A stretch of 64,000 nucleotides of DNA from Allocoleopsis franciscana PCC 7113 (GTDB taxonomy: Bacteria > Cyanobacteriota > Cyanobacteriia > Cyanobacteriales > Coleofasciculaceae). The notes below the pieces were generated by a model, which was not told the origin of the DNA, did not search any database, and was given only the letters and a program-made list of their open reading frames with translations. This document shows, piece by piece, positions 19,883 through 47,899 of the stretch. The stretch's first letter is position 1. Each line of letters opens with the position of its first letter. The stretch is from the NCBI RefSeq assembly GCF_000317515.1, contig NC_019738.1, positions 6,350,001 to 6,414,000 of the forward strand, written 5' to 3'. Both the position numbers and the translations under genes were made by a program.

Positions 19883-20207
19883 CAGGCTTTCTCCAGTAAT
19901 AAAACACATCTTCTGTCTAGTCGTTTGGCAGGGGATGTAGATTTTAGATTGTCAATTTGAGAGAGATTGAAATTATCCAAAGAAAAGGAAACCTCTTGCA
20001 AAGATATAAAGAACCCCTCCCCTTGCTAAGGGGAGGGAGCAAGATTTCAAGTATTTTCCCCATTTATAAGGGGGGATTAAGCCGGAGCTTTAGTGAGGAG
20101 GTAGATTCGACTTTTGCAAGAGGTCTAGGGTATTTACTACAACGTTATCAGGCAACAACCCCAATCTAAAATTTTGAGTGAAGTCTAATTTAATCATTAA
20201 ACTGACT
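19883..20207. other. Intergenic region, mostly repeat-derived
   Basis: A 325-base gap between the DUF2993 gene (+) and the regulator gene (-). Its centre is the inverted-repeat element at 19991-20124. Nothing else is recognisable. Confidence 0.4.
19991..20124. mobile_element. MITE-like element with ACCTCTTGCAAA termini
   Basis: ACCTCTTGCAAA at the left end is mirrored by TTTTGCAAGAGGT at the right end, about 134 bp in total. Inside are a hairpin CCCCTCCCCTTGCTAAGGGG and a second CCCC...GGGG segment, both of the kind found in non-autonomous cyanobacterial repeats. No coding capacity. Confidence 0.65.
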
Positions 20208-29110: not shown

Positions 29111-29477
29111 CGCTGTTTTGCTTAAGCAATATCTCTAATGCCAAAGATAAGGGTTTGAAAAATTGAGGTAAATGCTTTTTATATTGATTTTAGTAGCTAG
29201 AAATAATGGCAAATAGTCATAAATAGCGCTAAATAGCATTTCCGATAATTCTTTAGTATTAGTAGTTTTTTAGGGCATCATCGAAGATAAATCACAATTC
29301 TCTAATGGGCGGTTGAAACCGCGTCTACACAAACAAAACCTGCCTACGCAGGTTTCACCTCCCTCTATCCTCTCTTACTAAGGGGAGATGAAAGAGAGGC
29401 TAGTCCGCGCAGGCAGACTTGGTTTGTATAGCCCCAGACTTCCAGTCTGAGGGACGCTAAAAATAAGGAGGAATGAC
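29111..29477. other. Divergent region upstream of the CHAT unit
   Basis: 367 bases without a gene. The left part is AT-rich, with AAATAG-type iterations near 29207-29240. The right part is the dispersed repeat at 29307-29452. AAGGAG at 29465-29470 is the ribosome-binding site of the next gene and lies only about a dozen bases past the repeat. Confidence 0.45.
29307..29452 (-). repeat. Dispersed 'CAGACTGGAAGTCTGGGGC' repeat, copy A
   Basis: On the minus strand this element reads CTCAGACTGGAAGTCTGGGG, CTAYACAAAC, a GTC-GC-GGAC stem, TGAAACCTGCGTAGGCAGG, GTGTAG-CGCGG and ends in CCGCC. The same order of blocks occurs in opposite orientation inside the CHAT gene at 32441-32554. Its palindromic blocks could fold into several hairpins. 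This copy has an extra CTCTC-rich interior. Confidence 0.8.
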
Positions 29478-30365
29478 ATGGTATCACCAGCAAACTGTCT
29501 TCAAGAAAAATTCCTAGAAGACCTAACAGAACAAATGTTTCCACCACGTCAACACTCCGAAGTGCAAAAGTTATGTTTTCAGCTTCGATTTCATCCCAGC
29601 AATTGGAATAATGTCGAGCATACTCAAATTGCGGCTCAGATTAGCAAGCAATTGAACGGTGGCTTTTCAGAAAGCTCAATTAATCCCACAGTGGGGGATG
29701 TAGTCAAGAAGATAAAGGATAAGTTTGAAGCCCAAATGCAAGCTGATGGTGTTGAATTTGAAAAGCTGAATCCGGGACGTGGTAAGCCTAAAGAATCACC
29801 TTGGCAAATTGTTTATAAGTGGTTATGGGAGACAGAATTTCCCCGTCGTGGGTGGCAGTTGTCAAAGGAAATGGCGGTTTGTGCTATTGAACAATTGCAG
29901 ATGAAGCCGATGGTTGCGGCTGATGGAAATCGGAATTTGGATTTGGAAGGTATTCCAGACGTTATTGAAGAAACTATACGGAAGGGGGAACGATACAAGC
30001 TGCAAGTTGATTTGCGATCAGAAGGCTATCTGCTGCTGATTAATGAGGGGGTGGATGGGGAGAAATATTGTATCTGTCCTTCTAGGGCGTTTGCTCTATC
30101 TGAACCGCTGTTCTTAAGAAGTCCTTTGTATTTACCTCTAGAGGAGGCGATCGCTAAAAATGTAGGGTTAAAATTCAATGGTCTTGGAGAGGAGTATTTC
30201 TTAGCTATTGTTACCGAGAAACCTTTGAGTTTGTCTTGGGTACGTCCTGATTCTCATCCTAAAGATATTGTTGTGGATGATAACCGCCTCTATGAGATTT
30301 TCAAGCTTCTGGGGCAGCAGTCTAACTGTCATGTATTTTACAAAACTTTCGTCGTGACAAGCTAG
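29478..30365 (+). CDS. Unknown protein with DUF4384-like C-terminal region, partner of TPR-CHAT
   Basis: A 295-residue protein with no signal peptide or membrane segment. Residues 1-120 look like a helical adaptor (PPRQHSEVQKLCFQLRFHP, HTQIAAQISKQLNGGFSESS), reminiscent of effector-associated or DNA-binding helical modules. Residues about 172-255 (YKLQVDLRSEGYLLLINEG, then CICPSRAFALSEP) resemble DUF4384-type beta domains often encoded beside caspase-like proteins. It has a strong ribosome-binding site (AAGGAG) and is 69 bases upstream of the TPR-CHAT gene on the same strand, so it is probably co-transcribed. The function is not known; a sensor or adaptor for the CHAT effector is inference. 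Confidence 0.65.
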   Translation: MVSPANCLQEKFLEDLTEQMFPPRQHSEVQKLCFQLRFHPSNWNNVEHTQIAAQISKQLNGGFSESSINPTVGDVVKKIKDKFEAQMQADGVEFEKLNPGRGKPKESPWQIVYKWLWETEFPRRGWQLSKEMAVCAIEQLQMKPMVAADGNRNLDLEGIPDVIEETIRKGERYKLQVDLRSEGYLLLINEGVDGEKYCICPSRAFALSEPLFLRSPLYLPLEEAIAKNVGLKFNGLGEEYFLAIVTEKPLSLSWVRPDSHPKDIVVDDNRLYEIFKLLGQQSNCHVFYKTFVVTS

Positions 30366-30434: not shown

Positions 30435-33383
30435 ATGTCAGAGCAAGTTATAAGTCAAATTATTTGGCTGAATCAGACGGCATTTACAGCGTACCAGCAT
30501 GGACAGTACGAACAAGGAATTCCTTTTGCTCAACAAGCTTGTGATCTGACAAAAGCCTATTTCGGTACAAAGCATCTTTACTATCGCGATACCCTCAATA
30601 CCTTAGCATTGTTGTACTATGCTGCATTTCGATTATCTGAGGCTAAGTCTCTGTATCTGCAAGTTGAGAAGATTCATAGAAATGAGCTAGGTACAGACGA
30701 TATTGAATATGCCACTATCCTGAATAACTTGGCAAAGCTTTACCAAGTTATGGGTAACTTCTTTGAGGCAGAATTCCGGTATCGAAAAGCTTTGGAGATT
30801 AGAGAAGAAAAGCTAGGCAAGTACCATCCCGATTATGCTTCTACATTGAATGATTTGGCAGGGCTTTACTATGCTATGGATCTCTTCTCTGATGCTCAAC
30901 CCTTGTATCAGGAAGCTAAGGATATTACAGAAGAGATGCTAGGTACAGATAATCTCGATTATGCCACTACACTAAATAACTTGGCACTCCTGTACAAAGC
31001 TATGGGTGACTTCAAAAATGCAGAAGACCTGTTACTGCAAGCTAAGAAGATTTTTGCAACCGAACTAGGTACGGACAATCCTGAATATGCCTCTGGACTA
31101 AATAACTTGGCAGCTCTTTACCAAGCTATGGGTCGCTTCTGGGAAGCTATACCCTTGTGTCGGAAAGCTTTGGAGATTAAAGCTAAGCTAGGCACAGACC
31201 ATCCTGACTATGCCCAAAGCCTGAATAACTTGGCAGAGCTTTACCGAGCTATGGGTAGCTTCCCTGATGCAGAACCCCTGTATCACGAAGCTAAGGATAT
31301 TACAGGAGCCAAGCTAGGCACAGCTCATCCCAACTATGCCAATATCCTAAGTAACTTAGCAACACTAAAGGCAGCAACTGACTATCCTCAAGACGCGCTA
31401 CGCCTAATACAGGATGCGGCAAACATTCAAAACCCAGTGTTGGGTCAAATCTTCTCTATCACTAGTGATAACCAACGGCTGACCTACTTGCAACAAAACA
31501 GGTATCTGTTGGAGATGTTTTTATCTCTGGTGGCTCAATACTTGCCGAATGATTCTGATGCTGTCCGAGCAGCTTTTGATTTAGTTCTCCGACGCAAAGG
31601 CTTAGGCACTGAAGCAGCAGCCATGCAACGAATTTCTGTTTTGAGCGATCGCTACCGTCATCTAACTCCGCAACTAGAACAACTGCGACAACTGGACAAT
31701 CAAATTGCCAGCCTCGCTTGGAATGTCCCACCCCCTGAACAGTTGGCAGCATACGAAACTCAGCTTGCCACACTGTACCACCAAAGAGATGAGCTAGACC
31801 GATCGCTCAGCCGCCAGATTCCAGAGATGAATCTGCAAAAGCAACTAGACACAGCTAATCACCGTGCTATAGCTTTGGCTCTCCCGGAAGGCGCAACCCT
31901 AGTGGAGTTCGTGCGTTTCAATGTCTTCAACTTCAACGCAATCTTGGCAAAGGGTGATTCCCAATGGCTCCCGGCTCGTTATCTTGCCTTTATCTTACCT
32001 GCTAAGGAGCCAGAGCAATTACAAATGATTGACTTGGGGGAAGCGGAACTCATCGACAACTTGATTCGGGTGTTTCGCAAATCTGTATCGGGCGATCGCG
32101 ATTTAGATTTGGACGACTTAGACTCAATCCCAGAGGAGCCAGAACTCATCCCCCCAGAAGTGGAACTGCGCCAAAAACTGATTGACCCCCTCAAGCCATA
32201 TCTCACACCGAATCAGCAAGTATTTCTCGCACCCGATGGCGAACTTTGCTGCTTGCCCTTTGGCGTTTTGCCCACCGCCGAGGGACGCTATTTAATGGAA
32301 GATTACGAACTCTGCTACCTGAGTGTCGGGCGCGACTTACTCCGCTTCGGTGCGACACAAACTTTAGTGCAACCGACTAAACCTCTAGTCATCGCTGACC
32401 CCGATTATAATTTGGTTTTGTCCGAATCCCACCCAAGCCCCTCAGACTGGAAGTCTGGGGCTACACAAACAAAGTCCGCCTTCGCGGACTCTATTGAAGA
32501 CTGTGAAACCCGCGTAGGCGGGTTTAGTTCGTGTAGCCGCGACTTCCAGTCGCCCGATTTCAGCGAACTCCATCGAGACTTAGGACGAGGAAACGGCGAA
32601 GTATTCAAACCCATTCCCGCCACCCGAATAGAGGGAGCGCAAGTCGCTGCACAGTTAGGCGTAACCCCGCAAATGGGAACGCAAGCCTTAAAATCCCTGG
32701 TTAGCCGTTGCCAGTCCCCCTGGATATTGCACATTGCCACACATGGCTACTTTCTCGAAACTCGCCCAGAAACCCCACCGCCACAGATGATGAGTTTCCA
32801 GCGCTTGCACTCAGCCGCACAGCAAAACCCCTTAGCGCGTTCCGGCTTAGCCTTTGCCGGAGCCAATACCCTGTTACAAGGCGGCAAACTCCCCCCAGAA
32901 GCCGAAGATGGACTGCTCACCGCACAAGGAGCTAGTGGCATTAACCTCGCGGCGACAGCGTTAGTCGTAGCTTCTGCTTGTCAAACCGCGCTAGGTGATG
33001 TGCAGGTAGGAGAAGGGGTATTGGGGTTGCGACGAGCCTTTGTCCTAGCAGGGGTGCAAACGCTAGTAATGAGCCTGTGGAGTGTTCCCGATGTAGCGAC
33101 GGCAATTTTAATGGAGCGACTTTATCACAATCTGCTCACCGAGAAAATGGGTCGTGCCAAAGCCCTAAAGCAAGCACAGTTCTACGTCCGAGACTTGACC
33201 ATTGCCCAAATGCGACCCCAATGGCTCACCCCAGAAGCGATTACCCGCATCACAGAGCGCAGCCCAGGCATTGGCAACCATTTACGAAAATTGTGTCAAA
33301 AACATGAAATGTACCGCCCCTATGCTCATCCTAAATACTGGGGAGCCTTCATTTGCCAAGGGGATGCATCCCCTCCACTTTGA
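30435..33383 (+). CDS. TPR-CHAT caspase-like protein
   Basis: A 982-residue protein. Residues about 10-335 hold seven or eight kinesin-light-chain-type TPR units of 42 residues (for example YASTLNDLAGLYYAM, YATTLNNLALLYKAM). A helical linker (about 335-480) leads to a C-terminal CHAT domain (about 600-975). The caspase-type dyad is present: His770 in LHIATHGYF and Cys849 in VASACQTALG. CHAT proteins are cysteine peptidases of the caspase/separase clan used in programmed cell death and defence. Within the CHAT domain, residues about 669-707 are encoded by a dispersed DNA repeat. The gene follows the unknown DUF4384-like gene. Targets are unknown. Confidence 0.88.
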   Translation: MSEQVISQIIWLNQTAFTAYQHGQYEQGIPFAQQACDLTKAYFGTKHLYYRDTLNTLALLYYAAFRLSEAKSLYLQVEKIHRNELGTDDIEYATILNNLAKLYQVMGNFFEAEFRYRKALEIREEKLGKYHPDYASTLNDLAGLYYAMDLFSDAQPLYQEAKDITEEMLGTDNLDYATTLNNLALLYKAMGDFKNAEDLLLQAKKIFATELGTDNPEYASGLNNLAALYQAMGRFWEAIPLCRKALEIKAKLGTDHPDYAQSLNNLAELYRAMGSFPDAEPLYHEAKDITGAKLGTAHPNYANILSNLATLKAATDYPQDALRLIQDAANIQNPVLGQIFSITSDNQRLTYLQQNRYLLEMFLSLVAQYLPNDSDAVRAAFDLVLRRKGLGTEAAAMQRISVLSDRYRHLTPQLEQLRQLDNQIASLAWNVPPPEQLAAYETQLATLYHQRDELDRSLSRQIPEMNLQKQLDTANHRAIALALPEGATLVEFVRFNVFNFNAILAKGDSQWLPARYLAFILPAKEPEQLQMIDLGEAELIDNLIRVFRKSVSGDRDLDLDDLDSIPEEPELIPPEVELRQKLIDPLKPYLTPNQQVFLAPDGELCCLPFGVLPTAEGRYLMEDYELCYLSVGRDLLRFGATQTLVQPTKPLVIADPDYNLVLSESHPSPSDWKSGATQTKSAFADSIEDCETRVGGFSSCSRDFQSPDFSELHRDLGRGNGEVFKPIPATRIEGAQVAAQLGVTPQMGTQALKSLVSRCQSPWILHIATHGYFLETRPETPPPQMMSFQRLHSAAQQNPLARSGLAFAGANTLLQGGKLPPEAEDGLLTAQGASGINLAATALVVASACQTALGDVQVGEGVLGLRRAFVLAGVQTLVMSLWSVPDVATAILMERLYHNLLTEKMGRAKALKQAQFYVRDLTIAQMRPQWLTPEAITRITERSPGIGNHLRKLCQKHEMYRPYAHPKYWGAFICQGDASPPL
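32441..32554 (+). repeat. Dispersed 'CAGACTGGAAGTCTGGGGC' repeat, copy B, inside the CHAT gene
   Basis: 114 bases inside the CHAT-encoding frame match, block by block, the non-coding repeat at 29307-29452: CTCAGACTGGAAGTCTGGGG, CTACACAAAC, GTCCGC/GCGGAC stem, TGAAACCCGCGTAGGCGGG, GTGTAGCCGCG. The reading frame stays open through it and encodes about 38 residues between VIADPDYNL and FKPIPATRIEGA, a variable CHAT loop. Confidence 0.85.
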
Positions 33384-39439: not shown

Positions 39440-39559
39440 CTAGTGCATCCCGGCAAAAGTTTCTGACCACCTCTGTGCAAGCAGGGGAGCGGGGGAGCAG
39501 GGGAGCAGGGGAGCAGGGGAGATTTTAGCTGGTCAGTTATTTCTGCCACCCTGGTCTAG
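39440..39559. mobile_element. MITE-like element, CTAGTGCA family, copy 1
   Basis: Begins CTAGTGCATCCCGGCAAAAG and ends TTATTTCTGCCACCCTGGTCTAG, imperfect inverted termini. The interior contains tandem GGGGAGCA units (39483-39520). Apart from the number of units and the extreme right end, it is nearly identical to the copy at 47797-47899. It ends 7 bases before the cysC stop codon on the minus strand. Confidence 0.78.
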
Positions 39560-47796: not shown

Positions 47797-47899
47797 CTAC
47801 TGCATCCCGGCAAAAGTTTCTGACCACCTCTGTGCAAGCAGGGGAGCGGGGGAGCAGGGGAGATTTTAGCTGGTCAGTTATTTCTGCCATGCTGCACGA
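47797..47899. mobile_element. MITE-like element, CTAGTGCA family, copy 2, overlapping the bgtA stop
   Basis: It starts CTACTGCATCCCGGCAAAAG and ends TTATTTCTGCCATGCTGCAC. The body is nearly identical to copy 1 (39440-39559), with fewer GGGGAGCA units. The bgtA-like stop codon (47874-47876) and the last seven codons lie inside the element. Same orientation relative to the upstream gene as copy 1. Confidence 0.8.

Follow-up and report, generated by a model that had tools for sequence, protein, structure and literature searches.

An open reading frame across a dispersed repeat

How dispersed DNA of a seemingly non-coding kind comes to lie in frame within a caspase-like protein, and what may have carried it there, is the question raised by a TPR-CHAT gene in the window, that is, the whole 64,000-nt stretch analyzed here (positions 6350001-6414000 of a 7.97-Mb cyanobacterial genome). 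A preliminary description of this DNA had proposed that a repeat shared with a nearby intergenic region is inserted in frame in a loop of the CHAT domain. The relevant features are:

30435-33383, plus strand: host gene, an ORF encoding a 982-aa TPR-CHAT (caspase-like) protein (Pfam TPR_12, 6e-71; CHAT PF12770, 2.1e-59)
32438-32554, no strand assigned: REPIN-like element adding 39 codons in frame to the VIADPDYNL-FKPIPATRIEGA loop (repeat matches, homologue loops, folding z-score)
29308-29453, no strand assigned: second copy in the window, intergenic, ~25 nt upstream of ORF 29478-30365 (repeat matches)

The CHAT domain occupies the C-terminal part of the protein, after the TPR repeats, and is intact, with both its HIATHG and SACQT motifs preserved and ~276 codons remaining 3' of the insert. 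As originally claimed, the reading frame stays open throughout the repeat and ORF 30435-33383 is uninterrupted; the limits of the insert, first placed at 32441-32554 (114 bases, ~38 residues), are better set at 32438-32554, i.e., 117 nt or 39 codons. As a single strand, this segment folds far more stably than its shuffled versions (z = -7.8). Sequence comparison retrieved no solved structure matching the CHAT segment, and AlphaFold modeling of the domain with three input sequences yielded a pLDDT of 32, so that we make no structural claim for the loop; a position near the active site would be suggested by the caspase-like fold alone.

Searching the whole genome with the insert returned 48 matches at E <= 0.01 (best non-self match, E=1.1e-22), several of which are the two arms of one element. 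At least 32 distinct genomic places hold the repeat, the CHAT copy included and those next to the transposase gene (see below) left out of the count, which bears out its dispersed nature. The proposed block-for-block correspondence with the intergenic copy held in part. Positions 32439-32490 and 29402-29453 (opposite strand) are 92% identical over 52 nt (E=7.7e-15 in the whole-genome search), and 32461-32485 match 29325-29349 at 84% over 25 nt, but the two copies differ in the outer hairpin at one end (GCGACTTCCAGTCGC in CHAT vs GCGGTTGAAACCGC in the intergenic copy) and in the spacer, which is longer in the latter.

The repeat has a two-ended, REPIN-like layout

The CHAT copy resolves into the following parts:

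32440-32460, minus strand: left outer hairpin CCTCAGACT-GGA-AGTCTGGGG, the REP of one end
32461-32490, plus strand: core of the left half, CTACACAAACAAAGTCCGCCTTCGCGGACT, inner hairpin included; its GTAG foot is read on the minus strand
32507-32536, minus strand: core of the right half (CTACACGAACTAAACCCGCCTACGCGGGTT when reverse-complemented), inner hairpin included; the GTAG foot lies at the plus-strand end
32539-32553, plus strand: right outer hairpin GCGACT-TCC-AGTCGC

Full copies follow a constant order, namely outer hairpin, CTAYACAAAC, inner hairpin (ARYCYGCC TNC GCRGRYT) and a short spacer, followed by a second half that runs from inner hairpin through GTTTGTRTAG to outer hairpin. The halves are inverted in 20 full copies, yielding two opposed REPs that together make one long hairpin, each of which reads outward as (G/A)TAG, 2-3 bases and a ~6-bp hairpin. 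Of 116 half-copies, 61 have GTAG as the foot tetranucleotide and 46 have ATAG; both ends of the CHAT copy are of the GTAG type. Conservation within the repeat is highest in the two inner hairpins, with 808/812 pairs canonical and double changes among them, and the outer arms, which fall into 31 sequence types, keep their pairing (stem score >=6 in 80% vs 6% of shuffles). In sequence terms, this is a REPIN-like, two-ended layout whose hairpin pairing is maintained across genomes.

Several copies are embedded in larger structures. Five of them (L004, L005, L008, L009 and L012) form part of a larger unit whose ends are GGGAGCATCCC...GGGATGCTCCC and which is apparently bordered by 8-bp target duplications, and those at L002 and L028 form part of another one with GTCAACTTAA-type ends. 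A 17-mer, CGGAGCTTTAGTGAGGA (20083-20099 in the window), occurs at 69 genomic places with at most one mismatch (reversed control, 0) and is often nested in other palindromic repeats, e.g., the REPINs beside the transposase and in an NB-ARC gene. It resembles the cyanobacterial small dispersed repeats that Elhai reportedly described in 2008 as very small and nested in other repeats; the CHAT element differs from these in its greater length, its two hairpin ends and its link to a transposase. The window also holds a long direct repeat (39440-39553 and 47797-47894, 95-98% identity) made of GGGGAGCAGG-type tandem units.

A single clade of Y1 transposases is flanked by the repeat

Only one intact gene for a Y1 (HUH) transposase was found in the genome (L049:1489-1896, 135 aa); on its upstream side lies a full repeat, on its downstream side half of one. 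In a first set of loci carrying members of its clade (L053-L070 and L081), the repeat core was found within 700 nt of the gene in 19/19 cases, and in a second set at 10 of 11, the exception being a partial gene; the repeat thus flanks 29/30 clade loci, across genera. Usually a forward half lies upstream and a reverse half downstream, with the gene between them. The core was found beside none of 10 loci with sister paralogues, nor beside any of 30 loci with other Y1 genes, nearly all of the latter in repeat-rich genomes. Movement by other Y1 transposases was rejected on these 0/30 flanked loci.

Core matches numbered between 0 and 528 in each of 147 genomes, none of which matched the reversed-pattern control. 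Their median was 56 in genomes with the transposase clade and 0 in the others, and at least 10 matches were scored in 17/19 of the former vs 23/128 of the latter. Genomes with only the sister paralogue showed somewhat raised counts (median 9.5), which, together with the 23 repeat-rich genomes devoid of the clade, indicates that part of this co-occurrence reflects shared ancestry. The presence/absence association is therefore confounded by phylogeny and would be weak if taken alone; it is the flanking of the clade that provides the main evidence for a link between transposase and repeat. From this association, we infer that the transposase may move the repeat.

The protein passes the cut-off of the NCBIfam IS200 model NF033573 (74.8 bits, cut-off 55) and fails that of the REP transposase model NF047646 (29.7 bits, cut-off 80). 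It carries the motif YIRNQAQHH, of the Y---Q--HH type, with no class 2 Y...NP signature. In the phylogenetic tree, the repeat-flanked transposases form one branch (97/97), which includes the divergent L071, with the unflanked paralogues as sister; both groups share the Y---Q--HH motif and together stand apart (100/99) from the IS200-type proteins compared. Genomes have one to two close copies of the transposase. The multiple near-identical gene-plus-ends copies that characterize IS200/IS605 subclass 1.1 are absent from the genome under study, which has one intact copy. Among 386 genomes drawn evenly from the phylum, the clade is confined to this order. The L071 relative (genome G137), 46% identical, has a variant repeat alongside, with a similar inner hairpin and a different foot.

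The CHAT loop is variable and holds other repeats

To delimit the insertion site, the loop was taken as the stretch between VIADPDYNL and FKPIP in 36 homologous loci. Its length spans 19 to 158 residues, and most homologues at 47-58% identity have a short loop (19-43 residues) without the repeat. The residues of the insert are hence missing from most aligned homologues, in line with the insertion originally proposed. The two closest homologues found, the CHAT proteins of Oscillatoria PCC 10802 and O. princeps (~63% identical), both contain a right half-repeat (that of the core 32507-32536) in the same loop, strand and frame. This half is shared as DNA (86% over 51 nt) as well as peptide (ETRxGGF..SR[DE]F[QH]SP), and no homologue was found with the same residues on dissimilar DNA. 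The nearest homologues being thus half-filled, an unoccupied counterpart of the site was not seen in any close relative. The loops of G118 and G134 are identical to those of O. princeps and PCC 10802 and were not counted as independent. In the Oscillatoria loops the repeat half is preceded by a hydrophobic, two-helix segment that is also present in other homologues, and the outer hairpin differs from that of the CHAT copy by a paired change (GCGAATTCCATTCGC vs GCGACTTCCAGTCGC).

Other sequences have entered the same place. A paralogue in the same genome (L048) bears an unrelated dispersed repeat, with ~40 genomic matches, in frame in this loop, and the loops of other homologues contain further repeat-like peptides (RRHGDAETRR and SPPAPLLRGEGS, their likeness being judged by peptide alone). 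The loop between VIADPDYNL and FKPIPATRIEGA is tolerant of insertion. In eight homologues (L051, L052, L144, L146, L147, L149, L154 and L045), the loop, and with it the center of the caspase-like domain, harbors a hydrophobic stretch that probably spans the membrane.

Few frames of the repeat are open

Only 14 of the 120 end-to-end reading frames of the 20 full copies (six frames each) are open, which indicates that the repeat does not normally code and adds to the case for insertion into the CHAT gene; the intragenic copies are survivors of a filter. Four copies lie in sizeable ORFs of the genome, namely the CHAT gene of the window, two further TPR-CHAT genes (L121, 914 aa; L122, 935 aa) and an NB-ARC gene (L123, 616 aa). 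Most others fall outside large ORFs, at varying distances from neighboring ones. The copies in L121 and L122 sit near the N-terminus, not in the loop, and may reflect start-site uncertainty. In a search for an orthologue of the NB-ARC gene with an empty site, the matches ended near the edge of its insert. The genome has ~50 CHAT-domain genes, which account for ~2.5% of its coding length (a coding density of 83% being assumed), and three of the four intragenic copies lie in such genes (binomial p ~6e-5, post hoc, n=4).

Comparison with known systems

In REPIN/REP-RAYT systems (TnpA-REP; Bertels & Rainey 2011, PMC3116915; Di Nocera 2013, PMC3733652), as here, short palindromes occur as opposed pairs in many copies, mostly between genes (here, four of at least 32 places are in sizeable ORFs), and one low-copy Y1 transposase is flanked by its own repeat family. 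The present system departs from them in that its transposase is IS200-type, with Y---Q--HH, and scores below the REP transposase cut-off of NCBIfam, the foot, of the GTAG type in those systems, is GTAG in some half-copies and ATAG in others, and the two inner hairpins are the most conserved element. Set beside the published description and motifs of TnpA-Y1 subclass 1.2, which is low copy, mostly found in Cyanobacteria and Bacteroidetes and described as being without REPs (Quentin et al. 2018, PMC6006769), the clade matches in its Y---Q--HH, WQ and [DE]H[VI]H motifs, short core, low copy number and cyanobacterial hosts. In contrast to that description, REPIN-like repeats flank it in nearly every genome examined and are absent beside its sister clade.

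The likeness to Rickettsia palindromic elements drawn in the preliminary description is one of effect, since dispersed palindromes add peptides in frame to proteins in both cases, but not of kind. Those elements are CGTC-tagged and have no dedicated transposase (PMC3733652), and membership was rejected on the (G/A)TAG foot and the transposase association, to which the REPIN layout may be added. The remark that such insertions are rarely noted in cyanobacteria is fair, yet REPINs have been reported in Nostoc punctiforme (PMC3116915), as have GTAG repeats in cyanobacteria and REPs within ORFs of several bacteria (PMC3733652). To our knowledge, and within the literature searched, two aspects are new: the link between a REPIN-like family and a transposase of the subclass 1.2 type (published cyanobacterial families being compared by description, not sequence) and the entry of different repeat families into one CHAT loop.

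Origin of the insert

Judged from sequence comparison, the insert is probably a REPIN-like non-autonomous mobile element, spread by a Y1 transposase and surviving in frame in a permissive CHAT loop, a reading we hold with good confidence. Spread would occur via single-stranded DNA, through the low-copy IS200-type Y1 (HUH) transposase whose gene this repeat also flanks; the protein would recognize the hairpin ends and copy or move the element. One copy would have entered the variable loop of the TPR-CHAT protein, presumably as a single event. Most insertions in genes would be lost; the survival of this one, a step that the sequences support, is explained by a length divisible by three, by a fit between the gene and one of the few open frames, and by a loop that tolerates changes in length. 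The added 39-residue peptide is probably close to neutral. Weighing against this reading are the half-occupied loops of the nearest homologues, the repeat-rich genomes devoid of the clade and the mixed GTAG/ATAG foot.

On timing, though not on kind, the insertion might predate the split from Oscillatoria PCC 10802 and O. princeps, with later loss of the left half in Oscillatoria and of the preceding hydrophobic two-helix segment in the genome under study. The common loop, strand, frame and DNA of the right half in the two closest homologues argue for this order of events. The paired change in the outer hairpin (GCGAATTCCATTCGC vs GCGACTTCCAGTCGC) is nonetheless simpler to read as two independent insertions of different subtypes, both of which, or close variants of them, exist in the genome under study; moreover, inspection shows the right half to be open in about half of its six frames, and a chance recurrence of one frame is thus possible. 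We consider an ancestral insertion a serious possibility, if not quite the probable one.

It is quite unlikely that the peptide is useful, with repeats diversifying a protease-domain loop for substrate or partner recognition and being kept by selection. Such a role would agree with the excess of CHAT genes among the intragenic copies and with the several unrelated inserts in one loop, but this enrichment is post hoc on four copies, two of them near N-termini and outside the loop, and both the mutually unrelated insert sequences and the wide range of loop lengths are what mere tolerance predicts or accommodates. We give still less credence to a nucleic-acid role, in which an mRNA hairpin would control translation or termination and coding would be incidental; the strong single-strand fold is consistent with it, but other copies lie mostly outside large ORFs at variable distances from their neighbors, and here ~276 codons and an intact CHAT domain accompany the insert. 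Equally improbable is that the repeat is an ordinary MITE of a conventional transposase and the Y1 gene merely sits within a repeat cluster. Several copies do belong to the larger unit bounded by GGGAGCATCCC, whose target duplications of roughly 8 bp were judged by eye, but the CHAT copy and most others have no such ends, and this reading would leave unexplained why, in many genera, the repeat flanks one Y1 clade and no other Y1 genes.

A broader scenario, which we regard as rather unlikely although worth stating, is that an IS200-type Y1 lineage within subclass 1.2 has evolved independently, in cyanobacteria, into a second type of REP transposase, whose REPINs, along with other repeat families, repeatedly enter in frame this one loop and the N-termini of CHAT proteases as raw material for their diversification. 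Should the REP association have arisen separately in the IS200-type branch, Y1 domestication into REPIN systems would have occurred more than once. The repeat also offers a candidate substrate for a transposase subclass described as having none, the biochemistry of which is open to direct testing. At this CHAT gene, non-coding mobile DNA would have become protein sequence outside Rickettsia, and at a loop that unrelated repeats have hit as well.
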